Shown: piece after piece, positions 13,101 through 55,100 of the stretch
How the letters are laid out: every line of letters begins with the position of its first letter
Numbering within the stretch: position 1 is the first letter of the stretch
NCBI GenBank assembly: GCA_033964015.1
Contig: CM066924.1
Location: 9,459,077-9,523,076 of the forward strand
Direction of reading: 5' to 3'
Length of the DNA stretch: 64,000 bases
Source: Scolanthus callimorphus
Taxonomy: Eukaryota > Cnidaria > Anthozoa > Actiniaria > Edwardsiidae
Position numbers and translations under genes: made by a program
The notes under the pieces: generated by a model
The model's database searches: none
What the model saw: only the letters and a program-made list of their open reading frames with translations
Told to the model about the DNA's origin: nothing

Positions 13101-16100
13101 TCTGGTGCGCTCGTCCATCAAGACAATAATAGCTGTTTCTCCTGTAATCTGATCCCGTGGAATGCTCACTTCAACTTTCACCATAGACAGGGAATTAGCG
13201 ATTCGTGTCAAGGGTATTTCATTTACAGCCTGGTTCCCATATCCACTTTGTTCTTTGGACTTTAGGTTCTGATATTTAGTGCAATGTCCTCTTGAAACTG
13301 TCGAGCCCATTCTCGATAATAAAATACAAATACCTTTTGTATAGCGTAGTCGAATGTTCGCTTGCGAACCGTGCCAGTGTTTGTGACTTGTTCGTACAGC
13401 ACAAAGATTTATACCAATTCCGTATCCATGGATACCGTGTTCTAAACAAATATGTTTTGTGTGTGTGTGTGTTTACCGTGTGTTGCCATGACAATGCAAA
13501 ATATTTATTTCCTTACGTCACTTGTTTTCAAGTTGTCATGACACCAACCGACGTTATAAACATAATAATACACATTAGCGAGAATAAACAATATTTTACT
13601 TCATTCCTTTGCATTGCCATCATAGCTAACGGCCCACGGGTAAATCTCCAAATCAGTTTCCGCCGATAGTAAGTTTTACAAGGTGTTACCAATTTTTAAG
13701 CTACAGCAATTTTGACTCCTACTGTATTTGCGATGTATAGAAACGAGTTACTTACGAGTTACGAGTTACTTTGCGTTGTATAGGAACGGATCAAAATTAT
13801 TTCAAGCCATAGAAACGGATTACTTACGAGTTACGAGTTATTTGCGATGTATAGAAACGGTTACTTACGAGCTACGAGTTACTTTGCGATGTATAGAAAC
13901 GGGTTACTTACGAGTTACTTTGCGATGTATAGAAACAAGTTACTTACGAGTTACGAGTTACCTTGCGATGTATAGAAACGGGTTACTTACGAGTTACATA
14001 CTAGTTTGCGAAAGTACCTTACAGCAGAAACAAAGGCAACAAACGCGAACAAACGCACATGTGATAGACTATGACCTTCTCCAACATGCTTCTTCCATGA
14101 TTAAATTTGCCTTTTATCTCGCTAAATGTTGTTCAGACAGTAAATGTGATCAGGGGGATGATATGAGATGATTGCTTCCAAGAAGAATCTAGTTTGCGGT
14201 GGCTAAATCCTCCCCTTTGACTCAATAATAAACTGCACTGCCACGTCATGAAAAGAATTTTAAAATTCTGCATCGCCTTAAGAACAGGCAGCTCAACTTG
14301 TTGTAAATGTGTGACAAGGATGCGACATGATTGGTGACATTATAATCTGTTATCAGGTCAATCTGACTCAGTTCAACGTGAACAATGCTATGTATAAGAG
14401 TAAGGGATACAACAAGATAACCATAGACAATCAATCACTCGGAACATGACGTTTCCATGAGCTGGTCATAGCTTTGCTATGATTGCATAATGTTGCACCT
14501 ACTATAGCAAGCTGAATTAGTAATATATAGATTTAGCCATTGGCTAAAAGCGGAGCTCCTGGTTATAAAATCTTCTATGTGAATGGAAGGGATTCCCATG
14601 TGTACATGGTTTATATGGTTGCTTTAGAGTCTTCCCTTCACGAGATATTAATTTTTCAAGCGTGACCACTTCATTTCGTTCATCTGGTGGTCTAGACTAC
14701 ACTACCCAAGTTTGGTTGTTTTAGAGTCTTCCCTTCACGAGATGTTTATTTTTCAAGCATGGATGACGTCATCGATGACGTCATATCACGTGACCACTTC
14801 ATTTCGTTCATCTGGTGGTCTAGACTACACTACCCAAGTTTGGTTGTTTTAGAGTCTTCCCTTAACGAGATATTGATTTTTCAAGCATAGATGACGTCAT
14901 CGATTACGTCACATCACGTGACCACTTCATTTCGCTCATCTGGTGACCTAGACTACACTTCCCAAGTTTGGTTGTTTTAGAGTCTTCCTTTCATGAGATA
15001 TTAATTTTTGAAGCATAGATGACGTCGTCGATGACGTCATATCACGTGACCACTTCATTTCGCTCACCTGGTGACCTAGACTACACTACCAAAGTTTGGT
15101 TGTCTTAGAGTCTTCCCTTCACGAGATATTCATTTTTCAATCACTGATGACGTCATCGATGACGTCACATCACGTGTCCGGGTTACAGCACCCCCCTTGT
15201 GGCATAGACAAAATATCCCAAGTATGGTTGTCTTAGCGTGTTCCCTTGAGGAGATATAATTTTTTCTTTGCATACCACAGGGTTCCCATGTGTACACGGA
15301 CGACGGACGGACGCCGTACGCTATAGGTTTAATACCAGAAAAATAAAGAAAAAATCATATCTCCCGAAGGGTAGTTTCTATAGAAGCCAAACTTGGACAA
15401 ACTTTCAAAGACCATAAGAGGAACTCTATACCAAGGTCACATGCCCTTACGTCATCAATGACGTCATCAAAATGATCCATAATGCCCGTGACGTTCAAAA
15501 ATCAACTCGATAGTATACTATACGTTTTTTCCTTAGGTATGGTGCTCCGCTAAAAAGACACAAATTATTAATATCAATTAGTATAGTGACTAACACCGCC
15601 TGATATTGCTACGTGTTGCGCAGGGTACCAATTAGTATAGTGACACTAACACCGCCTGATATTGTAACGTGTTGCGCAGGGTGCCAACTAGTATAGTGAC
15701 ACTAACACCGCCTGATATTGTTACATGTTGCGCAGGGTGCCAATTAGTATAGTGACACTTACACCGCCTGATATTGTTACGTGTTGCGCAGGGTGCCAAC
15801 TAGTATAGTGACACTAACACCGCCTGATATTGTTACCTGTTGCGCAGGGTACCAATTAGTATAGTGACACTAACACCGCCTGATATTGTTACGTGTTGCG
15901 CAGGGTACCAATTAGTATAGTGACACTAACACCGCCTGATATTGTTACGTGTTGCGCAGGGTGCCAATTAGTATAGTGACACTAACACCGCCTGATATTG
16001 TTACGTGTTGCGCAGGGTGCCAACTAGTATAGTGACACTAACACCGCCTGATATTGTTACGTGTTGCGCAGGGTGCCAATTAGAATAGTGACACTAACAC

Positions 16101-19100
16101 CGCCTGATATTGTTACGTGTTGCGCAGGGTACCAATTAGTATAGTGACACTAACACCGCCTGATATTGTTACGTGTTGCGCAGGGTACCAATTAGTATAG
16201 TGACACTAACACCGCCTTATATTGTTACGTGTTGCACAGGGTACCAATTAGAATAGTGACACTAACACCGCCTGATATTGTTACGTGTTGCGCAGGGTAC
16301 CAATTAGTATAGTGACACTAACACCGCCTGATATTGTTACGTGTTGCGCAGGGTACCAATTAGTATAGTGACACTAACACCGCCTGATATTGTTACGTGT
16401 TGCGCAGGGTGCCAATTAGTATAGTGACACTAACACCGCCTGATATTGTTACGTGTTGCGCAGGGTGCCAATTAGTATAGTGACACTAACACCGCCTGAT
16501 ATTGTTACGTGTTGCGCAGGGTGCCAATTAGTATAGTGACACTAACACCGCCTGATATTGTTACGTGTTGCGCAGGGTACCAATTAGTATAGTGACACTA
16601 ACACCGCCTGATATTGTTACGTGTTGCGCAGGGTGCCAATTAGTATAGTGACACTAACACCGCCTGATATTGTTACGTGTTGCGCAGGGTGCCAATTAGT
16701 ATAGTGACACTAACACCGCCTGATATTGTTACGTGTTGCGCAGGGTGCCAACTAGTATAGTGACACTAACACCGCCTGATATTGTAACGTGTTGCGCAGG
16801 GTGCCAATTAGTATAGTGACACTTACACCGCCTGATATTGTTACGTGTTGCGCAGGGTGCCAACTAGTATAGTGACACTAACACCGCCTGATATTGTTAC
16901 CTGTTGCGCAGGGTACCAATTAGTATAGTGACACTAACACCGCCTGATATTGTTACGTGTTGCGCAGGGTACCAATTAGTATAGTGACACTAACACCGCC
17001 TGATATTGTTACATGTTGCGCAGGGTGCCAATTAGTATAGTGACACTAACACCGCCTGATATTGTTACGTGTTGCGCAGGGTGCCAACTAGTATAGTGAC
17101 ACTAACACCGCCTGATATTGTTACGTGTTGCGCAGGGTACCAATTAGTATAGTGACACTAACACCGCCTGATATTGTTACGTGTTGCGCAGGGTGCCAAT
17201 TAGTATAGTGACACTAACACCGCCTGATATTGTTACGTGTTGCGCAGGGTACCAATTAGAATAGTGACACTAACACCGCCTGATATTGTTACGTGTTGCG
17301 CAGGGTACCAATTAGTATAGTGACACTAACACCGCCTGATATTGTTACGTGTTGCGCAGGGTACCAATTAGTATAGTGACACTAACACCGCCTGATATTG
17401 TTACGTGTTGCGCAGGGTGCCAATTAGTATAGTGACACTAACACCGCCTGATATTGTTACGTGTTGCGCAGGGTACCAATTAGTATAGTGACACTAACAC
17501 CGCCTGATATTGTTACGTGTTGCGCAGGGTACCAATTAGAATAGTGACACTAACACCGCCTGATATTGTTACGTGTTGCGCAGGGTGCCAATTAGTATAG
17601 TGACACTAAAACCGCCTGATATTGTTACGTGTTGCGCAGGGTGCCAATTAGTATAGTGACACTAAAACCGCCTGATATTGTTACGTGTTGCGCAGGGTGC
17701 CAATTAGTATAGTGACACTAACACCGCCTGATATTGTTACGTGTTGCGCAGGGTGCCAATTAGTATAGTGACACTAACACCGCCTGATATTGTTACGTGT
17801 TGCGCAGGGTACCAATTAGTATAGTGACACTAACACCGCCTGATATTGTTACGTGTTGCGCAGGGTGCCAATTAGTGTAGTGACACTAACACCGCCTGAT
17901 ATTGTAACGTGTTGCGCAGGGTGCCAATTAGTATAGTGACACTAACACCGCCTGATATTGTTACGTGTTGCGCAGGGTACCAATTAGTATAGTGACACTA
18001 ACACCGCCTGATATTGTTACGTGTTGCGCAGGGTACCAATTAGTATAGTGACACTAACACCGCCTGATATTGTTACGTGTTGCGCAGGGTACCAATTAGT
18101 ATAGTGACACTAACACCGCCTGATATTGTTACATGTTGCGCAGGGTACCAATTAGTATAGTGACACTAACACCGCCTGATATTGTTACGTGTTGCGCAGG
18201 GTGCCAATTAGTATAGTGACACTAACACCGCCTGATATTGTTACGTGTTGCACAGGGTACCAATTAGTATAGTGACACTAACACCGCCTGATATTGTTAC
18301 GTGTTGCGCAGGGTACCAATTAGTATAGTGACACTAACACCGCCTGATATTGTTACGTGTTGCGCAGGGTACCAATTAGAATAGTGACACTAACACCGCC
18401 TGATATTGTTACGTGTTGCGCAGGGTGCCAATTAGTATAGTGACACTAACACCGCCTGATATTGTTACGTGTTGCACAGGGTACCAATTACAGTAACGTG
18501 ACGCTGGAGATTCAGTCCCAGTCTCCTCGTGAAGTGTTTGCGCTCATGAACAGAAGGCTGGTGACGAGGGCCGTTCTTGATTACGAGGCTATTCCTGTCT
18601 ACACCCTGGCGATAGTGGCGTACGATGGCGGCAACCCGTCACTACACACAACACTCACCTTCCGTGTTGACGTATGTAAATATCGCATTATTTCTTACGT
18701 TCTATATGGATACATTTGACTGATTTTTGCATGTAGTGAATTCGGTCACACACGTGTGTACTGGTCATCGACACCCCATGAACAGTATAGAGACATTGCA
18801 CACAGAAGCTAATTGATTAACATTGTGCTGTTAGGTTCTGGATAGAAATGACCGACCGACCTCGGTACGACTAGCGCCCAACAACGTACTTGAGAATGCC
18901 ACAATTGGGACTGTGATTGGTTCGCTCCTCGCACGTGACCAGGATAGAAAACAGACCCACACCTTCCAAGTCCTTGACCGAACAGGTATCAAGTAGTAGT
19001 ATTTACTAGTAAGTACCCGTGAAAAATTCACGAATTAAATTTTCCTTGAATGACGAAAATTATCGGATTGTCTGCCGTTGTGGAATGAACAGTTATACCG

Positions 19101-28100: not shown

Positions 28101-31100
28101 GAAAAGAAAAGCGAATGTTTCGAGGGGAGGGGTAGGTAAAATGAACACATAACTTAACAAATGAACACATAACTTAATCAACATAAATTATCCTAATTAT
28201 GCTAATGTAGAAAAAGCTAACAATGGAAAAGTTTACGTAGGAGTGAGTGACATCCCCACTACAACTCGGGGTTACCATAGTAACCCACGAGTTAAAAAGG
28301 TATCCGGCATCCGGCATCCAGGGGTTAGGCATCCGGCATCCACTAGTGCTCTGGATGCCCTTACATGGGGCGACTAGTTGACAATTATCGGTGTCATACG
28401 AAAACCAAATCCAATAATTGCTTATTATCCTGCGAGATTGCGCAGAATATCGTCTGATACTTAGCCGACGAGTTGGCTAAATCAGACGATATTCTGCAAA
28501 ACTCGAGCAGGATAATGGTTTTATTATTCAGCACATCGATAGCACAACATAACATGTCCCTGAAACGACGGATATCGCAGGATATATGTCATGTACAGAA
28601 GACAGCTATTGGCGTTGTAATGACCATATTTGGGCAGTGCATCGATGTGCTGAATAATAATCGCCGATAATCACGGAGCCTGAGGCGACTAATTGTTTTA
28701 GCATAATTGCTCAAGTGATTCATAAGGAGTTCAGACAAAAAAAAGTGTTTTGTTGGATTTTTTATGGTTATAACAAAACTCGCGCACTCAACCCTTTCAA
28801 TTCGCGCGGCATTTCTTATAATCACTTGAGTAATTATACTAAACAGTGCTATCATCGTGATATTCAGCACTCACCTGCTTCATCATCACCACATGCTTTA
28901 CGTTGTAGTTACTGTCAGATGCACAGACAATGGCAGCCCACCGTATTCTAGCCAGCGGTCGTTCAGTGTGACCCTATCAGACGTGAACGAAGCGCCGTAT
29001 AACATCAGTCTTGTTGGGTCTCCTGTGGTGGAAGAAAATGTAGCCCTTGGGTATATAGTTGGCAAACTTTCAGTCGAGGACCCAGATGCAGGTCAAAGTC
29101 ACGTGTTCCAAGTTACTGGAAATTATTCGAGTGTGTTTAAAGTGAGTACTGCACTTAAGATCTCTTCCCGTCGTATCTGGCTCGTCACGTATTCCAACTG
29201 AAGTACAGTGCTATAGCGTTTAAGTTAATACTAGAAATGGAAAATCGTCTTTAGCAGTGTCATTGCTTATTTGACATGTGTTTGGTTGCCTAATTAATAG
29301 GCATTATGATCAGTGGCTTACTTTTGATGAGAAATAGTAGTGAAAAAGAGACAGGGCAAGCGATGATAAGAGATAGACAAATTTGTTTGAATACTCTTTG
29401 ACAGGTAGACGGTAGCGACGTTCTGGTGGTTCAAGACCCATCTTATCTAAATCACGAGACACTCCCCCCTCCTGCTACACTTCGAGTATCAATCCGGGCA
29501 ACTGATGACGGAAACACGCCCTTGCACGTCATCAATGACGTCATCATCCACGTAGCAGACGTTAACGAGGCGCCGAGTGACATCCGTCTCGAACCGAGTA
29601 ACGTGACCGTAAAAGAAGACATAAAGCTTGGAATGTGCATTGCGAAAGTCAAAAGCACCAATCCGGAGAAGGATCAGACGGTCACCTACTCCCTCCTATC
29701 GTGCCTAGAGGAATTCCAGATTAGTAACATATGCTACAATGAGCCATTTAATAATTCGCACACCAATGATTCTACAACCTGGTACTTGGCGACCAAAGGT
29801 CCTCTGAGCTACGACACCATGCGCATCTATAACTATACTTATGATGTTCTTATAGAGGCTATCGATAACGGCAATCCCGTCATGTCCTATAACGGCTCCG
29901 TGCTTGTCCGCGTGGAGCGCGTCGATCCGTGTGCGAATCAGACACAATGTGATGGCAACGCTACTTGCGCACGCGTCAATGGCACATACTTCACATGCAC
30001 GTGCAATCCCGGTTACCAAGGCAACGGGCGGAGCTGTGAAGAGATCAACGAATGTGATCCCAAGCCGTGCAGGACAGGCGGAAATTGTACGGATTTGGTG
30101 AACAATTTTACCTGCGCGTATTATTGTGATACGCACCGATGCAATGAGAGCAATGGCCGGTGTACGGATACTGAATGCTATTGTTTTCGAGGATATGACG
30201 GCAAATCCTGCGACAATAATATCGACGACTGTGAAGGGAAGCCATGTTATATGGGAAAGTGTCATGACGGCGTCGCGCGGTTTGATTGCAATTGTGAAGA
30301 GGGTTACTTTGGCACGCAGTGTCAGAGGTATACTACTGACTGCGAGAACAACCAGTGTAAGGACACTGAACACTGCATTCCTCGAGACATAAGAAACACG
30401 ACCCGGGAAGAGGAACTCTGTCTTGTCAAAGAAATGGAAATCCCACTCTACATTAAAGAGTCAGTTTACTCCTTAAAGGAAGTAAGTACCAGCTACTGGC
30501 AATACCTGCTACAGAGTTTCATCACAGGCCAGCTACGTGTCAATGTCAGTGACGTCACGGGTGACGGAGAGGACACCTCGCGTGTGTTCGCCACGGACCT
30601 GTATGTGTTAAGTACCAGGACGGTATCACTAGAGCCTAGCTTGGATGTACGACACAGAAGAGAAATTGATAACCAGCAGACAAACTACACTGCAGTCTTC
30701 TTTGTTGTCAAAGTCCAAGATTCCATCTTCGTACCAGCCAATGTCTTTTATCTAGAGCTGAAGGTTGTATGCAGACCATACCTGAAGGAACCATTCCGTA
30801 GTTCAGATACGTTTGAAGCCAAGGTAAAGATACTTACATTACCACTTGGTTAGTACGACTGACCAAGGTAAAGGTACTTACATTACCACTAGGTTAGTAC
30901 GACTGACAAAGGTAAAGGTACTTACATTAACACTAGGTTAGTACGACTGACCAAGGTAAAGGTACTTACATTACCACTAGGTTAGTACGACTGACCAAGG
31001 TAAGGGTACTTACATTACCACTAGGTTAGTACGACTGACCAAGGTAAAGATACTTACATTACCACTAGGTTAGTACGACTGACCAAGGTAAAGGTACTTA

Positions 31101-33716
31101 CAGTACCACTAGGTTAGTACGACTGACAAAGGTAAAGGTACTTACATTAACACTAGGTTAGTACGACTGACCAAGGTAAAGGTACTTACATTACCACTAG
31201 GTTAGTACGACTGACCAAGGTAAGGGTACTTGCATTACCACTAGGTTAGTACGACTGACCAAGGTAAGGGTACTTACATTAACACTCTATTAGTACGACT
31301 GACCAAGGTAAGGGTACTTGCCTTACCACTAGATTAGTACGACTGACCAAGGTAAGGGTACTTACATTACCACTAGGTTAGAAATTGCGTTTAGGAGTAT
31401 TTTCTTATAGTTTCTTGTAATAAAGTGGATTAATGAGTGGACTCCCTGTGTATTGACAAGTAAGGCGCTAGCCTCGTGTAACAATGAGTGGGATTCCTGT
31501 GTATTGAGAAATATAAGGCACTAGCCTCGTATATTAATGAATGGGCTCCCTGTGTTTAGATCTGCGCTGCCGTGCCTGGTATGCTGGACACTCTACACAT
31601 CAAACCACTCATCCGACATCAGCAGCAGGAAAAAGACAACCGAGCGGCCCTGCACCCTTATATGTATTTCGTTATTGGATGCATTGCCGGCATTGTACTG
31701 ATCATGATTATCGTTGGACTCATACTTCATAGGTCAGTATTCATGGAGAACACAAATGAAGTATTAGCACTTGTGTGGAGCGTGTAGGTCAGTATTCATG
31801 TGTAGGGCTTGTAGGTCAGTATTCATCAGTACTCATGTGCGGAGCTTGTAGGTTAGTATTCATGCGTGGAGCTTGTAGGTCAGTATTCATGGAGAACAAA
31901 AATGAAGTATTAGTACTTGTGTGGAGCGTGTAGGTCAGTATTCATGTGTGGAGCTTGTAGGTCAGTATTCATCAGTACTCATGTGTGGAGCTTGTAGGTC
32001 AGTATTCATGGAGAACAAAAATGAAGTGTTAGCATTTGTGTGGAGCGTGTAGGTCAGTATTCATGTGTAGAGCTTGTAGGTCAGTATTCATCAGTACTCA
32101 TGTGTGGAGCTTGTAGGTTAGTATTCATGCGTGGAGCTTGTAGGTCAGTATTCATGGAGAACAAAAATGAAGTGTTAGTAATAATAATAATGATGATAAT
32201 AATAATGTCTTTATTCACAAGATAAGCACTTGTGTGGAGCGTGTAGGTCAGAGGTTTCATGTGTAGAGCTTGTAGGTCAGAGTATTCATGTGTGGAGCTT
32301 GTATTCATGTGTGGCCAGAGTATTCATGCGTGGAGCGTGTAGGTCAGTATTAATGTGTGGAGCGTGTAGGTCAGAGTATTCATGTGTGGAGCTTGTAGGA
32401 CAGAGTATTCATGTGTGATCAGAGTATTCATGCGTGGAGCTTGTAGGTTAGTATTCATGTGTGAAGCTTGTAGGTCAGAGTATTCATGTGTGGAGCTTGA
32501 AGGACAGAGTATTCATGTGTGATCAGAGTATTCATGTGTGGAGCTTGTGGGTAAGTATTCATGTGTGGAGCGTTAAGTCAGTATTCAGTATTCATGAGCA
32601 GCAGCTACGGATGGCCGATCCATTTATATGACATATTTGGATGACTGCACGAGTGTAGTGCACTGCATTTTATGCATTTCTAAAGCAAATTTTTTGGCAA
32701 TGCTTTTCTACGTCAACGTTCCGTCATTACAACAGTTATTTTTACAATTCGTTTTTCTCACACCGTTACATTGTAGGCGTAAGATCCTAAAAGAGAAGGA
32801 GCTCAAGGCGATGTTTCTCCATGACAAATTGCTGGAGAGCAGGACGAGTTACACGGAGGCCATGTTCCGACACCAGTTGGCCAAAGAGGGGGAGGCAACT
32901 AACCCCATGTATGGCGAAGACGAGGTGGACCCTAATAAGATCACAATGACAGATAACCCGCTCTACTCGGGTCCTGAAGATGAGGACGAGTTCGGCACAG
33001 GATTCGCTAACCCCATGTATCAGTCGTTCAAAGGCAAGTCTAGCGATAGGGATGAGGAAGTAGATGTAGAATTCGGCGATGGCCTGTTTGCTGGTGTGAA
33101 TGCCAAAAATTATCACCAGATTCAAGACGAGGCGGACAATGATAAGGGTAAGGAAAAAGGAAAAGGAAAGAAGAAGAAAAAGGCCGCCAAGAAAAATCAG
33201 CAGCAAATCCCCGATGAAGATCCAGATGTGTCGTTCGTTAACCCGATGTTCCAAAAGCGATCTAAGATCAGCAAGTCCGAACAGGCCCCGAGCGACTCTG
33301 AACAGATCCCGAGGGACTCCGACGAGGTGATCTATGCGACATCACAGAAGGGAAAAGCAAGAGATCAAACGCCCGATGGCCAAGCGAATCCACTATACTC
33401 AGTTCCCAGGAGGACAGAAACTGACAATACAATCAGTGCTTCCGATCTCCAAAAACAAGAGCTGATAAAACATCCCATTTACGATTTCCCGAAAGTGATC
33501 GAGGGAGAGACAAATGCTAGTTATGAGCCTGATGAGCCCCTGCCGATGGACATCGCGAGTGCCTTTGGTTTGGGCCCGACGGAATCGGCGGACTTCACCG
33601 AGGACGATTCAACTTTCCCGGCAGACATCGTAAGCGCGTTTGGCTCCAGTTTTCAACCCAGTCCACAACCTGTCAAGAAAATGTCCGGTAACGAACCAGG
33701 ACAGAGTGATTGCTGA
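959..33716 (+). CDS. Giant cadherin-repeat/EGF transmembrane receptor, 5' end outside window (21 visible exons)
   Basis: Exons: 959-1108, 1338-1757, 2679-3778, 3958-4188, 4318-4763, 5186-5338, 5433-6131, 6447-7035, 7183-7390, 7949-8168, 10910-11035, 11786-11860, 12179-12355, 18480-18671, 18835-18985, 22168-22289, 22926-23199, 28909-29141, 29405-30823, 31560-31732, 32777-33716. All have AG/GT borders and matching phases. Summed coding length is 8,098 nt; adding two bases for the apparent -1 shifts in exon 3 gives exactly 2,700 codons with the stop. Order: about 19 extracellular cadherin repeats (calcium motifs of DxNExP, LDYE and DxD type, 18 linkers counted), EGF-like modules, a juxtamembrane region, one transmembrane helix and a cytoplasmic tail with NPxY motifs. 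Family knowledge predicts calcium-dependent adhesion or signalling at the cell surface. I see no catenin-binding region or LamG domain, so it is not a classical or typical Fat cadherin. Exon 1 starts mid-repeat, so upstream exons lie outside the window. Confidence 0.9.
1338..1757 (+). CDS. Cadherin exon 2: repeat end plus most of the next repeat
   Basis: 140 codons, phase 0 at both ends. Contains VRVRTTDSG, the linker DINDQP, KENAPINTVIGQ and DEDSGQ calcium motifs. The two cysteines near the start (QCLAKGGSFCSLNYE) form an inserted Cys pair also seen in exon 5. Confidence 0.9.
2042..2299. mobile_element. Foldback MITE with TA duplication and CACGTG repeats
   Basis: Ends GACCTCTTTCGCTTGGGCGT and ACGCCCAAGCGAAAGGTC are inverted; TA flanks both ends. 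The body holds several TCACGTG motifs. A diverged relative lies at 39,378-39,560. Confidence 0.75.
2679..3778 (+). CDS. Cadherin exon 3: four linkers, with two apparent -1 frameshifts
   Basis: Starts MQKRFIIEVLDTNEAP after a ttcag acceptor and ends at a gtgagt donor. Linkers DTNEAP, DQNDAP, DVNEAP and DVNEVP are visible. Between about 2781 and 2808 the frame changes twice by one missing base each: the expected KVKENSARG and TTVGTLEALDQDS lie in three different frames within 30 bases. The rest is open and phase-consistent with exon 4, so an assembly or allele-level indel is more likely than gene death. Confidence 0.85.
3958..4188 (+). CDS. Cadherin exon 4: cadherin repeat core
   Basis: Begins in phase 1 (completes a Gly codon) with TLSTSDADNEF and includes TTRSLDYEARSKWLLDIRA. 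Donor gtgagt. Matches residues inside exon 8, which has no intron at this point. Confidence 0.9.
4318..4763 (+). CDS. Cadherin exon 5: start of duplicated six-repeat block
   Basis: Begins DVNEAPYGIALSSSSVDEN and covers the regions encoded by exon 1 and the first part of exon 2, without the intron that separates those. Contains LNYEAQRQLVLRVRSTDNG and linker DVNDKP. Donor gtacag after DEDNNQ. Confidence 0.9.
5186..5338 (+). CDS. Cadherin exon 6: cadherin repeat core
   Basis: 51 codons, starts VLSYSLVDDDSGRFSVD and ends DNGKPPLG before gtaagt. Parallels the second half of exon 2. Confidence 0.9.
5433..6131 (+). CDS. Cadherin exon 7: two linkers and repeat cores
   Basis: 233 codons, phase 0. 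Linkers NINEAP and DANDKP; VAENSANGTVVGTL, LDFERSRQEDVIIRVRD and LNYEQQNTYAIGVRAVDNG are typical cadherin strands. It gives the intact counterpart of the frameshifted start of exon 3. Confidence 0.9.
6447..7035 (+). CDS. Cadherin exon 8: two linkers and repeat cores
   Basis: Starts VRDVNEAPTVMELSN after a ggtag acceptor; second linker DLNEAP. Shares DPDNLG.KGTWQ and TTRSLDYEA with exons 3 and 4, defining the end of the duplicated block. Ends in phase 1 (AAAG, gtaggc). Confidence 0.9.
7183..7390 (+). CDS. Cadherin exon 9: linker DQNDAP and repeat start
   Basis: Begins GLGVSSIFVITVQDQNDAP; contains ADQDVQQTHNY. Ends with two bases of an Arg codon before gtattt, completed by exon 10. Confidence 0.85.
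7949..8168 (+). CDS. Cadherin exon 10: repeat core and linker DINESP
   Basis: Completes the split Arg codon, contains LLDYEQFTNYTIRVRAIDTG and DINESPVNITLSND. Donor gtaagt; minisatellite copies start about 40 bases into the intron. Confidence 0.9.
8211..8256 (+). repeat. First units of 36-base minisatellite A
   Basis: Starts about 40 bases after the exon 10 donor with AGCAATAGATATTAACTAGA; continues at 9361 after an inserted foldback element. Confidence 0.8.
8369..9357. mobile_element. Foldback element inside minisatellite A
   Basis: Arms CACGCCGGGCCTATAAGGAT and its inverse at 9338-9357, with homology running several hundred bases inward and an internal direct repeat (about 8,720-9,000). 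Confidence 0.8.
9361..10905 (+). repeat. Minisatellite A, about 36-base unit, about 43 copies, abutting cadherin exon 11
   Basis: Unit CCTACTTGACATAAACCAGC plus AAATATATTAACCAGA or AATAGATATTAACCACA variants. The last unit runs into the exon 11 acceptor (CCTACTTGACTTGGCAG). Confidence 0.92.
10910..11035 (+). CDS. Cadherin exon 11: repeat start
   Basis: 42 codons, VDENSVANSAVGQLTVHDPD onward. The acceptor ttggcag directly follows the last unit of a 36-base minisatellite. Confidence 0.9.
11183..11490. mobile_element. Foldback element
   Basis: GTACTCGGATATAAAAATGA near 11,192 is inverted at about 11,457-11,480. Lies in cadherin intron 11. Confidence 0.65.
11786..11860 (+). CDS. Cadherin exon 12: short repeat-core exon
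   Basis: 25 codons containing DELDFEQQSTYVVT, the conserved LDYE-type strand. Borders gccag and gtaagc; phase 0. Confidence 0.85.
12179..12355 (+). CDS. Cadherin exon 13: linker DVNESP and repeat start
   Basis: 59 codons with STTFTIHVLDVNESP and VAENGSPGDLVGVVTVQDPD. Ends DPDTP before gtaggt; joins in phase to GTNYSNVTLE of exon 14 across a 6.1-kb intron. Confidence 0.9.
13735..14010 (+). repeat. Minisatellite, about 44-base unit, six degenerate copies
   Basis: Units of TTACTTACGAGTTACGAGTT then ACTTTGCGATGTATAGAAACG. Confidence 0.85.
14530..15560. mobile_element. Repeat element with terminal inversions and internal CRE-bearing tandem units
   Basis: GCTAAAAGCGGAGC near 14,542 is inverted as GGTGCTCCGCTAAAA near 15,541. 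Four to five units of about 130 bases carry GATGACGTCATCGATGACGT palindromes. Related sequence is at 44,660-45,110. Confidence 0.65.
15577..18479 (+). repeat. Minisatellite B, 56-base unit, about 52 copies, spanning cadherin exon 14 acceptor
   Basis: Unit GGTACCAATTAGTATAGTGA, CACTAACACCGCCTGATATT, GTTACGTGTTGCGCAG. The final copy is the real acceptor plus the first exon bases GGTACCAATTA. Copies are very uniform, with mainly A/G and C/T variants at fixed sites. Confidence 0.95.
18480..18671 (+). CDS. Cadherin exon 14: repeat core, acceptor inside a minisatellite unit
   Basis: 64 codons starting GTNYSNVTLEIQ, with LDYEAIPVYTLAIVAYDGG. The acceptor and first 11 exon bases are identical to the repeated 56-base unit that fills the upstream 2.9 kb, so the true acceptor is the last of some 52 near-identical sites. 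Confidence 0.88.
18835..18985 (+). CDS. Cadherin exon 15: linker DRNDRP and repeat start
   Basis: Starts VLDRNDRPTSVRLAPNN, then VLENATIGTVIGSLLARDQD. Ends phase 1 (ACAG, gtatca). A Helitron-type terminus begins 21 bases downstream. Confidence 0.88.
19006..20383 (-). mobile_element. Non-autonomous Helitron 1 (family 1)
   Basis: Minus-strand 5' end TCTTATATATAATACG; 3' end hairpin CGTGAATTTTTCACG then CTAG, followed by host T. Joined directly to the next copy. No Rep/helicase coding seen. Confidence 0.7.
20384..22010 (-). mobile_element. Non-autonomous Helitron 2 (family 1), tandem with copy 1
   Basis: Minus-strand 5' TCTATATATTAATACCGTAA; 3' hairpin CCGTGAATTTTTCACGG plus ...CAGCTAG and T. 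Inserted at A/T without a longer duplication. Confidence 0.8.
21052..21274. mobile_element. MITE nested in Helitron 2
   Basis: Inverted ends GGGGTGGACCATTAGAAATT / AATTTCTAATGGTCCACCCC with G/C runs. Other Helitron copies lack it (…CGACTTAGCATGAC), so it is a later insertion. Confidence 0.8.
22168..22289 (+). CDS. Cadherin exon 16: repeat core
   Basis: Completes an Asp codon, then LFTVKGSDLVLISPVNYEQD and NVTVNATDNGTQPFSVV. Borders ttgtag and gtaagt. Confidence 0.88.
22926..23199 (+). CDS. Cadherin exon 17: linker DCNDVP and repeat
   Basis: DTVLVIVIDCNDVPSDV, VPENSPGGTPLANVTVVDED, then AGLDYETMTRPIN. Ends phase 1 before gtatgg; the next exon completes a Val codon across a 5.7-kb transposon-filled intron. 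Confidence 0.88.
23310..24480. mobile_element. Probable foldback element region
   Basis: A strong inverted repeat at 24,336-24,455 (GGCATTACGTGAAATATCAA and inverse) and repeats of ATTAGCCAATCAG-like ends. Limits uncertain. No gene seen here. Confidence 0.45.
25715..26036. repeat. Foldback element with G/C runs
   Basis: GGGGCTGGGGTGCTCGTCG near 25,738 is inverted as CGACGAGCACCCCAGCCCC near 25,978. Confidence 0.7.
27256..27611 (+). repeat. Direct repeat of about 150 bases
   Basis: TACGGGGTTTCTTCCAATTC starts near 27,247 and 27,472; a third partial copy begins near 27,397. Confidence 0.8.
27709..27749 (+). other. 5' half of a tRNA-like sequence
   Basis: GTCCCCGTGGCGCAGTTGGT plus AAGCGCG resembles acceptor and D arm with A box; the rest is missing. 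Likely a SINE head or tRNA fragment. Confidence 0.55.
27749..28036. repeat. Long hairpin, about 125-base arms
   Basis: TTTTACACTCGTTTTCAGTC … CTAGCAAAATAT is inverted after a loop of about 40 bases; only a few mismatches. Confidence 0.8.
28032..28080 (+). other. 5S rRNA-derived fragment
   Basis: AAGTTAAGCACGATC then GGTTAGTATTTGGATTGGTG and ACCG match the 5S internal promoter half. Truncated; probably a 5S-derived SINE or pseudogene. Confidence 0.6.
28440..28500. repeat. Hairpin
   Basis: GCAGAATATCGTCTGAT is inverted within 60 bases; flanking TTATCCTGC/GCAGGATAA extends the inversion. Confidence 0.7.
28690..28845. mobile_element. Short MITE next to cadherin exon 18
   Basis: TTTAGCATAATTGCTCAAGT and its inverse near 28,815-28,842. 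Confidence 0.6.
28909..29141 (+). CDS. Cadherin exon 18: repeat end, linker DVNEAP and next repeat
   Basis: VTVRCTDNGSPPYSSQRSF, DVNEAPYNISLVGSP, VEENVALGYIVGKL and EDPDAGQSH. Borders gttgtag and gtgagt. Confidence 0.9.
29405..30823 (+). CDS. Cadherin exon 19: last cadherin repeats, EGF modules and juxtamembrane region
   Basis: 473 codons. First a cadherin repeat end and linker DVNEAPSDI. From about 29,920 to 30,420 come cysteine-rich EGF-like modules, including calcium-binding-type starts INECDPKPC and NNIDDCEGKPC and the motif GYFGTQC. A non-cysteine region of about 130 residues follows, containing RHRR at 30650-30661, a furin-type site. Many N-glycosylation sequons are present. The donor is the first unit of a 44-base minisatellite. 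Confidence 0.92.
30821..31385 (+). repeat. Minisatellite C, 44-base unit, about 13 copies, spanning cadherin exon 19 donor
   Basis: Unit AAGGTAAAGGTACTTACATT then ACCACTAGGTTAGTACGACT, GACC. The first AAG|GTAAAG is the real exon end and donor. Confidence 0.95.
31560..31732 (+). CDS. Cadherin exon 20: transmembrane segment
   Basis: Encodes ICAAVPGMLDTLHIKPL, then the hydrophobic helix VIGCIAGIVLIMIIVGLIL followed by HR, a stop-transfer pattern. Ends AG before gtcagt, which seeds a downstream donor-bearing minisatellite. Confidence 0.9.
31728..32600 (+). repeat. Minisatellite D, complex unit, spanning cadherin exon 20 donor
   Basis: Repeats of TAGGTCAGTATTCATGTGTG and GAGCTTG, plus longer units with GGAGAACAAAAATGAAGT. 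The real donor CATAG|GTCAGTATTCATG is the first copy. Confidence 0.9.
32777..33716 (+). CDS. Cadherin exon 21: cytoplasmic tail with repeated NPxY motifs
   Basis: 313 codons after the split Arg codon, then TGA at 33714-33716. NP-type motifs: NPMY 32900-32911, NPLY 32954-32965, NPMY 33009-33020, NPMF 33240-33251, NPLY 33387-33398, plus HPIY near 33474. NPxY is a known ligand for PTB domains. A lysine cluster (GKGKKKKKAAKK) near 33,160 could be a nuclear localisation signal or a membrane-proximal basic patch. Near the C terminus DIASAFG and DIVSAFG form a repeated short motif. Confidence 0.92.
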
Positions 33717-36048: not shown

Positions 36049-39000
36049 CTGCAAAAATACCAAAATATTCAGCTATTATTTCACCTGGCTTGTCAAATAA
36101 ACCTCCCTCGTCTCCACAACCAAAAGTTGGTCAAAGGGCCCGTTTCTCGAACATTCAGGAATTCTCGGAACCCTCTAAACCTTTAGGAAGTTAGCAGCTC
36201 TGGTTATTGTTATCTTCTAGAACATCTTTTGCTATCTGTAGCTTATTGAGTGAGAAAATCTAGGAAACCAGCCTTTCCCGAAACCTTTTTATCTACCTTC
36301 CGAGTTTTTCGGATTTTCAGGTTTGAATAAGTTGAAAATTTTATACTTCAGAGTCATAAACGCTACAAATATCAACCAGCAAAGCATGAAATTTGTTCAG
36401 ATCTGACAAGCCTCGGTTGGTTAGAGATACAACAGATACCGAGTGTGTGATACTCACCAATAAGCGTCTCCACTGGATGTATGTGTAGGTTTCACGTGCG
36501 AATTCGTGATACTCACCAATAAGCATCTCGACTGTATGTATGTGTAGGTTTCACGTGCGAGTGCGCGATACTCACCAATAAGCGTCTCCACTGTATGTAT
36601 GTGTAGGTTTCACGTGCGAGTGCGCGATACTCACCAATAAGCGTCTCCACTGTATGTGTAGGTTTTACGTGCGAGTGGGTGATACTCACCAATAAGCATC
36701 TCGACTGTATGTATGTATGTGTAGGTTTCACGTGCGAGTGCGCGATACTCACCAATAAGCGTCCCTACTGTATGTGTAGGTTTTACGTGAGAGTGGGTGA
36801 TACTCACAAATAAGCATCTCGACTGTATGTGTAGGTTTTACGTGCGAGTGGGTGATACTCACTAATAAGCATCTCGACTGTATGTGTGTGTAGGTTTCAC
36901 GTGCGAGTGTGTGATACTCACCAATAAGCGTCTCTACTGTATGTGTAGGTTTCTCCTGCAGCTTCTCGTATGACATCGCCCTATAAGACACCTGGATAGC
37001 CAACAGGTTCTTCCTGTGGCATCCACATCACAATAGTTACATACTACGAATAAACCATCAACAATTAAAGTCGACGGCTAGCCTGAGAAACTATTACTTT
37101 ACTAGCTGATGCCCGTGAAAAATTCACGGAGTGTAAGGGGGAAAATTATTTTACTTAAAGTGTTCTCTGTTTAAAAAAACCGGGGAAAAAATCACTATGG
37201 CCATATGGATGTGGAAAGGGGTTCATGATTTCCCCCTTCCATAAACTGCTGGATTTACATTACTAATAACCTCCCATTAGCATGAGTAGCCCGTCCCACC
37301 ATGCCGAAATAAATGAAGTGAGGCCAAAGGATTTTTTCTGCACTGGTCTCCCTGATTTTGGTGCGACAAAATCACGCGTGTGTCCGTCTCTCAAATCGGT
37401 CAAAGAACCCGTGAAAATCGAAAGCGCAATTTGACTTCGGAATTGTTTGTATGTTTATCATATCTCAGTGAGGGGAGAGAAGAAACAGGTAAAGTAAAAA
37501 TAGTCTAAGGACTAATAAGTTTTTTAGTTTATATTATTTATATTTTTTCGGCTTTATCCCTCGCTTAAAAAATAGATTGAATTAGAACTTAGCCCAAACA
37601 AAGTGAATCTTTTCCATCAAAAACATGCCCACTGGAGGAATTTCCTCCTTCTCTTCGGGATTGTGTCCTTCGTTTTGCGATAGAGCCGTCAGGATTTATA
37701 CTTAGAGAATATTATTCGACTTTCACAGACTTTGCTTTGTAAATGTGTCATTTCGACTGAGCATGACTTAGCGCGTGCTCGGAGGAAAGCAAGGTAGTGT
37801 GTACGTTTGTTGAAACTTGAATGAAAATTTTTCTCAGCTCAAATCTTTCAAGTTAGAATTATCCCTGCACATTCCTGTATGTAATCTGTAAGAGAACCAT
37901 TTAGGTTTCAATGTCAATGGTGCTTTCGTCTCTGCGAACCGAGTTCTTTTTTAGTTTCTGTGTGAGAATTCAACATGGCGGCGATGGCGGCTTTAGAACT
38001 TAGCCCGAGGTGAATCTTTTCCAACAAAAATACGCCCATGGTCCAGATTTCCACCTTCCCTTCGGGTTTGCGAACTTCTTTTGGCGGAACAGCTTCAGGG
38101 CTCAGCGGAGCGAGTGTCGACACGATTTTCCTTACGGTATTAATATATAGACTAGCTGATGCCCCTGAAAAATCCACGGAGTGTAAGGGGGAAATTTATT
38201 TTACTTAAAGTGTTCTCTGTTTAAAAACGGGAAAAAAAATCACAATGGCCAAATGGATGTGGGGAGGGGTTCATGATTTCCCCCTTCCATAAACTGCTGG
38301 ATTTACATTACTAATAATCTCCCATCAGCATGAGTACCCCGTCCCACCATGCCGAAATAAATGAAGTGAGCCCAAAAGGATTTTTTTTTTGCACTGGTCT
38401 CCCTGATTGGTGCGACAAAATCACGCCTGTGTCCGTCTCTCAAATCGGTCAAAGAACCCGTGAAAATCGAAAGCGCAATTTGACTTCGGAATTGTTTGTA
38501 TGTTTATCATATCTCAGTGAGGGGAGAGAAGACTAACAGGTCAAGTAAAAATGGTCTAAAGTCTAAGAATTTTTTTAGTTTATATTATTTATATTTTTTC
38601 GGCTTTATCCCTCGCTTAAAAAATAGCTTGAATTAGAACTTAGCCCAAAGTGAATCTTTTGCAACAAAAACATGCCCACTGGAGGGATTTCCTCCTTCTA
38701 TTCGGGATTGTGTCCTTCGTTTTGCGATAGAGCCGTCAGGATTTATACTTAGAGATTTATACTTAGAGAATATTATTCATGACTTTCACGGACTTTGTTT
38801 TGTAAATGTGTCATTTCGACTTAGCATGACTTAGCGCGTGCTCCGAGGGAAGCAAGGTAGTGTGTACCTTTGTTGAAATTTGAATTAAAATTTTTCTCAG
38901 CTCAGATCTTTCAAGTTAGAATTATCCCTGCACATTCCTGTATGTAATCTGTAAGAGAAACATTTAGGTTTCAATGTCTTTGGTGCTTTCGGCTTCCGGA

Positions 39001-46118: not shown

Positions 46119-46261
46119 GAACTCCGCGTTGTCGATATGGAAGAGATCTGATGCGATGGTATGCCATGGGCACGGTGGTACTTCTGGAGGCTCTTTGCAT
46201 TGAGCAGGTTGGTATTTCTGACATGTAGGACAAGACTGGGTGAGTTTATCTATGTCCTGGT

Positions 46262-47650: not shown

Positions 47651-47676
47651 GTGATGGTCACGCTTTATTGCTGCGT

Positions 47677-47865
47677 TTAGATCTTTGGGGGAAGAAGTTT
47701 TCCGTTCGACTTCCTTCTATAAACAAGGCTGTTTACCCAAGCTGTGGGCTCGTCTTCGCGCACTTTCTTGATAATGTCTTGCTTGACCATGTCATCCAGT
47801 TCTTGCTTGATGTCCTCTTTCAGACTGATGGGAACTCTCCGTGGGGCGTGGATGGCAGGCGTCAC
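47677..47865 (-). pseudogene. Retroelement reverse transcriptase N-terminal fragment
   Basis: HAPRRVPISLKEDIKQELDD and WVNSLVYRRKSNGKL are the Gypsy RT entry motifs. Out of frame with the main RT block. Confidence 0.8.
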
Positions 47866-48079
47866 GTCAGGGTCGAGAGTAATGTGGTATTTACCCTGGA
47901 ACTTTCCAATGCCGTCAAAGCACTGCGGGTATTGCTTGATTAGATGCTCGCGATATCGTACGGGTTCTGGCGAGGAGTTTGGGCGACTTTGGCGACTGGC
48001 GGGTCAGCAGTTTCTGCTGTTTTTTCAATGGCGCAATTAAGTGTTATCAGGCTGAGCTCTAGCGCTGATGGAAGGCCTA

Positions 48080-48345
48080 TTATTGCTCGTCCGGGTGCGT
48101 CGGTGACGTAAAAACGTGCGCTTGTGGACTTGATTTGTGCGTGCATTGTAACTCACAAATTCCAAACTGCGCTATGTGAGATCCACCATATGCGGTTAGT
48201 GTTGTGTTTGATTTAGTGAGTGCACCTGGCTTAGGGTACCCGTCAGCTCCTATGTGTTGTGAGAACATTGCTTTATAAATTCTCAACGGAAGAATGTTCG
48301 CTTGCGCACCTGTGTCAAGCTTTGCCTTGAGTCGCGCATCCTGTC
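48080..48345 (-). pseudogene. Retroelement aspartic protease fragment
   Basis: LDTGAQANILPLRIYKAMF carries the DTGA active-site motif. Confidence 0.75.
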
Positions 48346-48585
48346 GATTGCTCGCTCTCGGTAGTGTTACGCCTAGTGTTACAAGGGCTTCATTTTTGGG
48401 ACTGCCTCCCGACTGCTTTGGGTCTATGGAGTTTATATTGATAGTCTCAAATAACAGGGAATCTCTGCTTCAGACTTTTTGGAGAACCGGATGATTTTTC
48501 GTGAGAGTTTTCGCATAGAGTTTTGAACTGTTTGAAAAACCATACACAAAAAAGGAAGGAACGGAAGGAATACGTTTTTATACTC

Positions 48586-49063: not shown

Positions 49064-49171
49064 CTACCATTCCGCTTCTCCTGTCGCTCGCTGAAACACG
49101 TAATCCTTTCCCTTTAAATTCATGATTCCATCTTTTAGGTGGAATTTCCACTTGTTGCGACTTCTAGCAAT
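49064..49171 (-). CDS. GTF2A1: TFIIA exon 10: C-terminal beta barrel
   Basis: IARSRNKWKFHLKDGIMNLK then GKDYVFQRATGEAEW and stop. Near-universal C-terminus of the family. Confidence 0.97.
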   Translation of the reverse strand: MARSRNKWKFHLKDGIMNLKGKDYVFQRATGEAEW

Positions 49172-52100
49172 CTGGAACAGAACAGAAGAACTTTCGTGCG
49201 TAAAAAGGTAACAGTGTAAACCAAACGAAACACACAGCCAAGCCACCCACACGGGGCGCTCGCAAGGTGGAACTTTAGTTCACTGCCGACTCCTAGCGCC
49301 GTAAGCGTGCCCCTTGCACATAATCTGTACACATAATCGGCTACATTGTGTACCAAGAAACACGCTGGGATATTCCATGGTATACCACTCGAAAGCATTG
49401 ATTGTATAACTAGTATAGAATGACTGTGATGAAATGGATTACTACATTTGTTAAAAACATTATCATGCTATAGTGCAATGCGAAGTGCTTAAACGTATAT
49501 CCTAGCCACCAGACGAAACTAGCCACCCATAAAATACCAACATACGTTGTTTCCTAAAGGCTGGTTTCCATATAGTCGTATCTGTCGTATCCGTGAAACA
49601 AAAGAATAATTCAAATTTTTCACAGTGATACGACCGGTCGCATGTGTCGTATCTGTCGTATTGGACTGTCTTACGAGTCATTTCCATATAGTCTTATGAG
49701 TCGCATTAAATATTTTTTCATACGACAGATACAATAGATACGACAGATACGACTATATGGAAACCAGCCTTAAAGCGAACAACACAGTTTAAAGACTTTG
49801 ATGCTCTGAAACTGACTGTGTGTTACAGGGTTCGTACGCCCAGAAACTTCAAAATGTCCAGGAGTTTTCAAACAGGCTTATCACAAGTGAGTTTTCAAAC
49901 AGGCTTATCACAAGTGAGTTTTCAAACAGGCTTATCACAAGTGAGTTTTCAAACAGGCTTATCACAAATGAGTTTTCAAACAGGCTTATCACAAGTGAGT
50001 TTTCGAACAGGCTTATCACAAGTGAGTTTTCGAACAGGCTTATCACAAGTTTTCATGAGTTTTCCAAACATTTTTTAAAGGCCAATCAAAATGCCGTTTT
50101 CATAACGTTTCTACATTAAGCAACTCTCGCACGCTTGCGGGCCGCTTCTCTGACAAGAAAATAGCTCAAATCGCAATCCAATTCCATCCTCTTCATAACA
50201 AGTCAAAACAACCTAGAATTGCATTTGTATAACACTTGAAAGGTTTTTCTATTAATCTGGAGGATTATTTTGATTACTACGGGCAATTGTACATGTGTTT
50301 TTATGGTTTCAATTTTACTTATTTTATGTCCACGGTGGACGAATATTAAGCGTGCGAGTGCCCCTTTAAGCAATGGACAAAATGCGCTTCTTCCATGAGT
50401 CGCTTAAAGAATTCCACTACTTTCTAGGTCTTACAGGAGCCGTACGAATCCTGGCGTTTGTTTTGAAAATTACTAGCAAAGAAAAACCCACCTTGTCGAA
50501 CTGACAAACCACCACATTCTCGGTGTCAAACAAGTCAGCTGCACTATCATCCGGGTCGTCATCATCCGAGTTCAAGGGCTCTTCCTCCTAGCAACACGGA
50601 TACATTTTACAATTCATCGAATAGTCTCGTTGAATAGTCTTTCAAATACTCATTAATTATTCATGACCTAATCAGCCAACCAGAGCTCAACTACCACTGC
50701 TGCTACTCATCCTCCTCTTCCTCATCATCATCATCATCACTGTCGCTATCATTTGCACATTCAACTGTCACTTACCTCCTCCACATTCTCCTCGCCCTTG
50801 TGGAGCGCACCTGAATCATGCTTCTCTTCCTCATCGTCACTGTCGCTATCATTTGCACCATCAACTACCACTGCTGCTACTCATCCTCCTCTTCCTCATC
50901 ATCATCATCATCATCACTGTCGCTATCATTTGCACATGCAACTGTCACTTACCTCCTCCACATTCTCCTCGCCCTTGTGGAGCGCACCTGAATCATGCTT
51001 CTCTTCCTCATCGTCACTGTCGCTATCATTTGCACCATCAACTACCACTGCTGCTACTCATCCTCCTCTTCCTCATCATCATCATCATCATCATCACTGT
51101 CGCTATCATTTGCACATTCAACTGTCACTTACCTCCTCCACATTCTCCTCACCCTCGTGGAGCGCACCTGAATCATGCTTCTCTTCCTCATTGTCACTGT
51201 CGCTATCATTTGCACCATCAACAACCACTGCTGCTACTCATCCTCCTCTTCCTCATCATCATCATCATCATCATCACTGTCGCTATCATTTGCACATTCA
51301 ACTGTCACTTACCTCCTCCACATTCTCCTCACCCTCGTGGAGCGCACCTGAATCATGCTTCTCTTCCTCATTGTCACTGTCGCTATCATTTGCACCATCA
51401 ACAACCACTGCTGCTACTCATCCTCCTCTTCCTCATCATCATCATCATCATCATCACTGTCGCTATCATTTGCACATTCAACTGTCACTTACCTCCTCCA
51501 CATTCTCCTCACCCTCGTGGAGCGCACCTGAATCATGCTTCTCTTCCTCATTGTCACTGTCGCTATCATTTGCACCATCAACTACCACTGCTGCTACTCA
51601 TTCTCCTCCTCCTGATCATCGTCATCACTGTCGCTATCATTTGCACATTCAACTGTCACTTACCTCCTCCACATTCTCCTCACCCTCGTGGAGCGCACCT
51701 GTATCATGCTCCTCATCCTCTTCCTCATCATCATTATCACTGTCGCTATCATTTGCACATTCAACTGTCACTTACCTCCTCCACATTCTCCTCACCCTCG
51801 TGGAGCGCACCTGTATCATGCTCCTCATCCTCTTCCTCATCATCATCATCACTGTCGCTATCATTTGCACATTCAACTGTCACTTACCTCCTCCACATTC
51901 TCCTCGCCCTCGTGGAGCGCACCTGTATCATGCTCCTCATCCTCATCCTCTTCCTCATCATCATCATCACTGTCGCTATCATTTGCACCATCAACTTGGA
52001 TAATCATCTGAGGCTAAATACAGTGATAGTCATGAGCTCCATTACATTACCTAACACGCAGGTTATACAGGGCTTGCTTTTCATTTTCAGTTTGGGATAG

Positions 52101-55100
52101 CATGTCTCCCCTTCTTTTACAAAATGGGGGACAAATTCATTCTGAGGAGGAGGGGAGAGGAGGGGAAGGGAGGGTTAGTTGAGCTTCGCTTAATTAACTC
52201 ACAGTGGTCACGATGTTACTTTCACTTCCAAATAAAGATGTAGGAAGTAAGAAATGTCTTGCGTACCACTGTTTAAAAGGAGAAGACTTAAAGAGGGAGA
52301 CGTGGTTCCCTTGCCTGTGAATTGAGGAGCAGATTTTGATAAAAATGCAAGCTATGCCATAGATAATAGTAGAACAGACTGGCTACTAATACCGGTAGGC
52401 TGAAATGATGGTAGAACTTAATTTACTTGTCTGAAATGAAAACAATTCTGCTAATAGATACCTTATTTTGTCGTGCTTGTTGGTTTTGCAATTGAACTTG
52501 TTGCTGCTGAGTCTAAAAGAACAAAAACTCATCTTACATGGTGTATTGTTTTAGATTAATTTGCATCGATTTAACCTCAGATTGCTGTGCAAATCAAGGC
52601 AGTAAAACTTTTGGGCTTAAAAAATTTCAAATGTTGAGGGTTGTCCAATACTCTGACAAATTTATGCAAGGCATTGTCTAAAACAATGGAGTGCAATAAA
52701 GTGTATTATAGAACGAGGCAATACAATGGAGGAGAACAATACCATGCATAAATTTGTCAGAGTATTGGACTAGTATGAAATGTCTGTCTTATAGAGATTT
52801 AGGGAGCTAGTTGTTGTATCTAAACAACGATCATATTGGTCATCCAAATTTCCAATTTTATAAGGGTTGGTATGGGAATTCTGAACTTCTTTTCGCATTT
52901 TTCTCAAAAGCATGAAATTCTGAATAAGGGCCTTTATTGCTTGGCAGGGCTCATTTGTTTATCTACTATGCAAAAAATGGGGTGATGCGCATGATTACTA
53001 GTGAAATTTTTCAAAAACGCCTGCTTGATCTGCATTTGCTGTTGATCTGTCTGTGTCTCTGTCTCTCTTCCTTGCCTGACCTGTTGCATGTCAGGCTGTA
53101 ATAATTATTGCTGTCTGTCTTGCTGTCTGTCTGCCTGTCTGTCTTGCCTGACCTGTTGCAAGTCAGGCTGTAATTATTGCTGTCTGTCCGCCTTGTCTGT
53201 CTTGTCTGACCTGTGGCACTTGAAGCTGTAATAGACCTTTTTCCAAAATGGCCGCCGAAAATTCAGATCGATTTTTGTTAAAAATGAACAACAGCACTAG
53301 ATGACCCATTATCACTTTAGTAAAACTACAAAATTTCACTCCATTATATCCAATATCTTCCGAGAAAACGAACGTTGAAAATTTGAAAATTTACAAATCT
53401 CTCTAAAATTTTCAATTTTCAGACTAATTTCTCAGCCGACATGGCATTTGGCATAACGAAAATTTAAAGGATTACTAATGTGAGGATACTCTTTCTAGTG
53501 CCAGTATTTGATTTTCACTCGGTTTAATTTTAAGACATGTGAATTTGCGGCGGCCATTTTGGAAAAACGTCTATTGTTGCGGTCTGTCTGCATGTCTGTC
53601 TTGCCTGACCTGTTGAAAGTCAGGCTGTAATTATTGCTGTCTGTCTGCCTGTCTGTCTTGCCTGACCTGTTGCAAGTCAGGTTGTAATTACTGCAGTCTG
53701 TCCGCCTTGTCTGTCTTGTCTGACCTATGGCACTTGAAGCTGTAATTGTTGCAGTCTGTCCACCTGTCTGTCTTGCCTGACCTGTTGCATGTCAGGCTGT
53801 AATAATTATTGCTGTCTGTCTGTCTGCCTGTCTGTCTTGCCTGACCTGTTGCATGTCAGGCTGTAATAATTATTGCTGTCTGTCTGTCTGTCTGCCTGTC
53901 TGTCTTGCCTGACCTGTTGCATGTCAGGCAGTAATAATTATTGCTGTCTGTCAACCTGTCTGTCTTGCCTGACCTGTTGCTAGTGAAATTTTGCTAGTGT
54001 AACAATTATTGCTGTCTGTCTGCCTGTCTGTCTTAGGCTGTACAGTAATTATTGCTGTCTGTCTGCCTGTCTGTCTTGCCTGACCTGTTGCAAGACAGGC
54101 TGTACAGTAATTGTTGCTGTCTGTCTGACCTGTTGCACTTGAAGCTGTAATTGTTGCTGTCTGTCTGTGTGTCTGTATTGCCTCACCTGTTGCAAGTGAG
54201 GCTGTAATTGTTGCTGCTGTGGAAGATGGGCTACTTGTATTGTCCGGGCTGTAGGGTATGATGCTGGTAGTCTGGCTCCACCAACTGAAACAAATATAGA
54301 CAATTATAACACAACACATTTTCCTAATAACAGAGTTATCTCAGTTTCTGACAATTATTCATTCAAATAAAGACTATATTGATAAGCAGGTGCCTGTGAT
54401 GCCCCAGTGCCTTGTAAAACGTTCATGTTTGCACACAGACAAGCACACAGAGGAGTATTGTCAAATTTAAAGGCCCATGCCACCATTCTATAATGCACTG
54501 CATGCCGTGTTGTTTATACCCTTGACATCTCAACTTAGAAAAGAGATTGAGATGCCAGTTGATAGATCAATTTAAGCTTTTGACAGTTATTTTTATTTTT
54601 TTTTGTTTCAAAACCAAAACATAAACACCACGGCATGCATGCATTATGGAAAGGTGTAATGGGCCTTTAAATAGGTAGAAAGATATAAACAGAAAAATGG
54701 GTGCTTCTTACAGTCATAAGCACTGAGCCGTGGCCACCCGACTAAAGTTTCTTACAAGTTTTTGAAACATTTATCTCCTTAGTTATTGCTGAGAAGCTTG
54801 ACTGCTGTACATGAAGACTTTTCATGTTCTATTTTCCTTTCTCTTCATTTTCAATTATAAAAATCTGTAAATCATTTGTTTTGTGCTTGTCTAATATACT
54901 GGTATGCATCTGAGTGAATCAGGTGAATCTTTTCCAACAAAAAACACACCCAATGGAGATCTTTCCTCCTTCTCTTCTGGTTTGTGTCCGTTGTTTTGTG
55001 ATACAGCCTCAGGATACCTATATACTCAGAGATAATTATCCATAGCTTTGGTTTTAGTGTGTAAATGTGTAATTTCAACTTGGCGTGCACTCTGGGAAGA

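Follow-up and report, generated by a model that had tools for sequence, protein, structure and literature searches.

Minisatellite arrays at exon borders of three neighbouring genes

The window, i.e. the whole stretch of DNA analysed, comprises 64,000 nucleotides of the sea anemone Scolanthus callimorphus (assembly GCA_033964015.1, contig CM066924.1, forward-strand positions 9,459,077 to 9,523,076) and contains a cadherin gene on the + strand, followed by DEG/ENaC and TFIIA alpha/beta genes on the - strand. Six of the intronic tandem arrays in these genes repeat a predicted exon/intron border, and they are probably "mirages", in which the repeated unit consists of the end of a coding exon, a predicted splice site and the adjoining intron, likely derived from a tandem duplication across the border. 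The arrays of the window are those listed by Tandem Repeats Finder (TRF). All exon/intron borders were predicted from sequence, the exons being those of a purpose-written simple gene finder trained on the window's own long frames and then checked by protein similarity. To count junction-spanning copies, 80 bases with the border in the middle were aligned locally with the array in question; the counts include the real border.

In the cadherin gene (+ strand), the unit of an array of 52 copies of 56 bp (15575..18490) holds an acceptor at 18,480 and about 26 nt resembling the start of the exon that follows (18480..18671, GTNYSNVTLE...); AG is kept in all 52 junction-spanning places, and the exon part of the copies is 26 nt long. 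Joining this exon to the exon at 12179-12355 produces a single Cadherin domain across the junction 12355/18480 (Pfam, E=3.4e-15). Farther downstream, an exon with EGF domains (29405..30823, from the gene finder) continues in frame into an exon encoding a hydrophobic segment that is likely transmembrane (31560..31732, gene finder and in-frame join), and both of their donors are repeated. The donor at 30,823 (CCAAG/GTAAAG) lies in the unit of a 44-bp array of 13 copies (30819..31381), where GT is kept in 13/13 spanning places with 3-5 nt of exon per copy. At the donor at 31,732 begins a complex array with periods of 27-146 bp (31730..32587), which appears in TRF as two separate stretches (31730-32178 and 32231-32587) and was counted as one; GT is kept in 10/10 spanning places, but this case is weak because just three exon bases (TAG) are shared. 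Two other arrays of the gene approach a border and have no junction-spanning copy when aligned with it: one of 2.5 copies of 53 bp (31429..31555) stops 4 bases short of the exon at 31,560, and one of 36/73 bp (9361..10902), whose unit is without a junction, leaves a gap of 7 bases to the cadherin exon at 10,910. The latter had been described, in an earlier reading of the sequence alone, as a seventh array directly abutting an acceptor; it does lie near the acceptor, but with a gap.

On the - strand, an array of 8.7 copies of 59 bp (36440..36944) contains the DEG/ENaC donor at 36,922 and 23-38 nt of the exon (3' part at 36922..37010, ending ...VETLIG), with GT in 9/9 spanning places; this exon joined to the one starting at 36048 matches positions 403-455 of the ASC family (PF00858, E=7.4e-13). 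In the TFIIA gene, the unit of a 180/112-bp array (50687..51996) is most of an acidic exon (51888..52007) including its donor at 51,888, and the intron after this donor is almost wholly taken up by the array. The copies carry from 18 nt to the 40 nt of exon examined, and GT is kept in 8 of the 13 spanning places. The join of this exon to the next (50492-50587) is crossed by a PF03153 match (51888/50587, E=7.8e-40) and aligns without gaps to the Nematostella protein (P0129). The donor at 54,187 (CAACAG/GT), which ends a Gln-rich TFIIA exon (54187..54284, in-frame join), is present with 13-34 nt of exon in copies of about 64-68 bp (53754..54187) that keep GT in 13/13 spanning places. TRF ends this array at 54,167, its reach across 54,187 coming from local alignment; related copies are also found at 53071-53232, and Nematostella TFIIA has additional residues near the join. 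TRF, reading of the sequence and local alignment thus agree with the sequence-only reading that six arrays repeat the adjoining exon border.

Some further features of these genes were observed. In exon 1 of the DEG/ENaC gene (42700-42780, - strand), the frame seems to shift near a run of T, either through sequencing error or because the gene is broken. Between the DEG/ENaC and TFIIA genes lie retroelement frames (45286-48469, - strand), of which one encodes reverse transcriptase and RNase H domains, and a tRNA-Thr gene (58729-58803, + strand) is located within a predicted TFIIA intron, on the strand opposite to TFIIA.

Border arrays elsewhere in the genome

The assembly totals 597 Mb and has about 15 large units (C15 measures 25.7 Mb, C16 2.35 Mb), the window being part of C14 (G000:C14). 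Five 40-kb blocks from random places on contigs C1-C5 (200 kb) were sampled outside the window and contained 32 arrays, two of which, both in block B1, are clear border arrays. One is at the acceptor of a RalGDS-like gene (B1 18,671-18,938, or L002:8671-8938), where the unit holds TATAG/GGC and the exon start (GMIQGTVPYLGTFLT), AG is kept in 3/3 spanning places and the exon part is the full 40 nt examined; the exon matches RasGEF (PF00617). A second array of this gene (B1 15,728-16,107) stops 39 bases before an acceptor, which is not inside it. The other border array consists of 19 copies of 28 bp at a donor of the gene for casein kinase II beta, CSNK2B (B1 38,284-38,816, or L004:8284-8816). 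Its unit mostly has 19 exon bases (range 18-21), which encode ..NHFVAR and match PF01214, and GT is kept in 18/18 spanning places; in a tblastn comparison, the human CK2 beta protein continues gap-free into the next exon at this donor. Border arrays are therefore not confined to the window, and their occurrence on both strands and in unrelated genes, first noted for cadherin, DEG/ENaC and TFIIA, extends to RalGDS-like and CSNK2B.

Other surroundings gave no such cases. Overlaps between listed arrays and listed exon borders are absent from the 20 kb left of the window and from the 40 kb on the right side of the window and of CSNK2B; the end of one array (25 bp, 2.2 copies) is 38 bases away from an exon that follows it and is weakly predicted. 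Six sample arrays near putative tensin-, INPP1- and LSM8-like genes do not sit at any recognised junction. Where a sample array overlaps a predicted exon that is no more than a low-complexity or weakly scored frame (for example B2 14568, B2 16097, B5 10947, 22776 and 26645), it was not accepted as a border array.

Origin of the border arrays

Repeat units span six predicted borders in the window (that at 31,732 with 3 exon bases) and two outside it. Donors, at the 5' side of an intron, are affected five times in the window and once in CSNK2B, and acceptors, at the 3' side, at 18,480 and in the RalGDS-like gene. Some of these borders are backed by protein joins, through Pfam at 18,480, 36,922 and 51,888, tblastn for CSNK2B and the Nematostella alignment for TFIIA. 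The founding step would be a tandem duplication of a short stretch that happened to span an exon/intron border, after which the array may have lengthened, like minisatellites in general, through unequal exchange or slippage. The extra copies lie on the intron side and would likely be spliced out through use of the exon-side site, so that they may be mostly neutral and tolerated. Since conserved coding sequence is present in the units (that of casein kinase II beta, RasGEF and TFIIA), the exon is older than the array and was its source. The involvement of five genes, of both strands and of only part of the arrays (8/23) also counts in favour of duplication.

Several observations weigh against this explanation. 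The RalGDS-like acceptor is a gene finder prediction, the joins at 30,823 and 31,732 come from the open reading frame, and 5 of the 13 places in the array at 51,888 are without GT. Use of the exon-side copy is deduced from the DNA rather than from transcripts. Read-through from the real donor meets an early stop at 30,823 and 51,888, and at 31,732 a stop about 17 codons on. At 36,922 and 54,187 the frame is open over the 29 codons shown and over 45 codons, respectively, so that occasional use of a decoy site at these two might lengthen the protein rather than be silent. Duplication by itself also leaves unexplained an excess of border arrays over random positions.

This excess was estimated with a null model in which the founder unit lands at random inside an intron or across its border. 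In the window, 6/16 intronic arrays cross a junction, compared with an expectation of 1.74 (p=0.0038; p=0.02 when counting the five that span by TRF coordinates). The RalGDS-like and CSNK2B genes have 2/7 against 0.58 (p=0.094), and together the count is 8/23 against 2.33, an approximately 3.4-fold and partly ascertained excess (p about 0.0008). When arrays were instead placed at random, five overlapping arrays compare with about 2.25 (p=0.023), and seven overlapping or at most 10 bp away with 2.65 (p=0.0015). The DEG/ENaC intron was taken as 36049-36921 in the founder-unit model and 36131-36922 in the placement model. Founder-unit counts leave out the window array at 33927-33990 (outside genes), arrays of less than 60 bp or with a TRF score below 100, four of the ten arrays of block B1 (21495, 25949, 26470 and 29820, past the recognised exons), and the remaining arrays of the 32, including the six near the tensin-, INPP1- and LSM8-like genes. 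The counts are ascertained, since abundance of arrays was the ground for selecting the window and both outside genes are in the sole block with border arrays. The claim that such arrays are far more frequent than expected was thus too strong; the excess over chance is moderate. An unlikely alternative is that a minisatellite-rich genome simply has arrays that cover some borders by chance, for which the sample speaks, its 32 arrays including just two clear border arrays, but against which the low probabilities for the window and for the combined count argue.

A splice-linked process, involving R-loops, co-transcriptional repair or the splice sequence itself, could make exon borders hotspots of minisatellite birth and would account for the excess, but this is rather doubtful. 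In its favour, a genome-wide count of three AGGTRAGT motifs spaced 24-54 bp apart gives 368 matches against 161 for the reversed motif, while single motifs occur 19 times against 23 reversed in 344 kb; a modest enrichment is therefore conceivable. Matches inside one array are not independent (100 places among the matches listed represent 18 arrays by eye), and the excess at borders is itself modest and ascertained. Among the sample arrays of the 200 kb, a recurrent strong donor is no more frequent than in controls (3/31, against 7 in reversed sequence and 6.5 with shuffled units); among window arrays the figures are 6/16, 5 and 3.6. The proposal of a local process that amplifies exon borders consequently holds for local amplification, seen also outside the window, but not for a general link between arrays and splice motifs. 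Three repeats of CAAGGTAAG, a motif picked after CSNK2B and cadherin had been seen, have 36 matches genome-wide against 5, in the arrays of CSNK2B, of the window at 30,819, and at C59:705,493 and C5:31,346,954. The array on contig C59 (G000:C59:705493-706062) has the 28-bp spacing of CSNK2B and is perhaps a haplotig or alternative haplotype.

The sequence-only reading had also proposed that selection maintains the copies as decoy sites, which would regulate or buffer splicing. Retention of GT or AG in 126 of the 131 junction-spanning places, real borders included, counts in its favour, but the splice window is as variable as other parts of the unit, with 45 variants against 44.7 expected in seven arrays taken together (combined p=0.69) and 13/270 against 10.4 in the core dinucleotide. 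With no signal of extra conservation in either variability test, one of which had the junction of 51,888 misplaced, decoy selection is highly improbable. Counting from the splice motif as anchor had given an apparent conservation signal, which was dropped because the anchor biased the count.

Relation to known systems and other observations

Two reports on amphioxus (PMC3087553, PMC3902484) describe mirages in Adh3, the globins BflGb6/9, TnC and PGBD5, as minisatellite-like duplications of a 5' or 3' exon/intron border in which many copies retain AG or GT, as they do here; reverse transcription-polymerase chain reaction of the globins and data on Adh3 are said there to suggest regular splicing. 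Mirages are also described as varying in length between alleles or cells (PMC3087553). The arrays of S. callimorphus differ from those described in amphioxus in their cnidarian host, in having up to 52 copies and in affecting several borders in neighbouring genes. Mirages have been known from cephalochordates, whereas among the best 120 of 1382 matches the TFIIA protein is nearer to Nematostella (369 bits), Actinia (327), Actinostola (290) and then corals than to Branchiostoma floridae (198), a difference that concerns the range of mirages and not their structure and that places the genome with the hexacorals rather than the lancelets. The present arrays are a known phenomenon in a new and distant phylum. 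No cnidarian report of mirages was recognised in the literature searched, where subscription papers were mostly outside reach and mirages are described from lancelets only; the part seen of a report on earthworm metallothionein intron repeats (PMC12783039) contains nothing on border-crossing repeats.

Intron gain by tandem genomic duplication makes a new intron out of exon DNA. It likewise yields additional splice sites through tandem duplication, but in the present arrays an existing border has been multiplied into the intron. Human internal tandem repeats at exon-intron boundaries are also border minisatellite expansions that may form new introns; unlike the arrays described here, those reported are in recent primate paralogs within segmental duplications and are often retained in an exon of alternative transcripts (PMC2812944). 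It is accordingly conceivable, but very unlikely, that tandemly duplicated exon DNA containing AGGT made the introns themselves, leaving the arrays as relics. The nearly complete occupation of the intron after 51,888 by its array, a route from mirage to new intron proposed by the amphioxus authors, and the link of the human repeats to new introns are in keeping with intron birth, but in the other introns the array fills only part.

Clear cnidarian cases, some of them in a gene of such conservation as that for casein kinase II beta, point to a process that is more widespread. A tentative and doubtful extension is that exon borders are hotspots of minisatellite birth across animals, mirages in lancelets and sea anemones being seeded by a process linked to splicing or transcription that continually supplies spare splice sites for the evolution of introns and exon extensions. 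Comparison between anemones that have a given array and those that lack it makes the proposed route from border repeat to new intron testable.

Other repeats and genes were encountered in the same analysis. Arrays of 128 bp from different chromosomes, in the window (14661-15264) and at two positions in L006 (4568-4898 and 6097-6427), share the stretches AACCAAACTTGGG and GACGTCAT and are perhaps one dispersed minisatellite family. A single-exon frame of the window (61218-61892, + strand) is without a Pfam match and has eight relatives of 48-62% identity, one a hypothetical protein and seven nameless. At the end of contig C1 (G000:C1:44059067-44108563), three COX1 copies of equal score, 16,446 bp apart, and a fragment are likely a head-to-tail mitochondrial concatemer joined to the chromosome in assembly. 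ARAGORN found no tRNA in 4.3 kb around each of the three copies; a unit of about 16.4 kb with no tRNA near COX1 fits a cnidarian mitochondrion.

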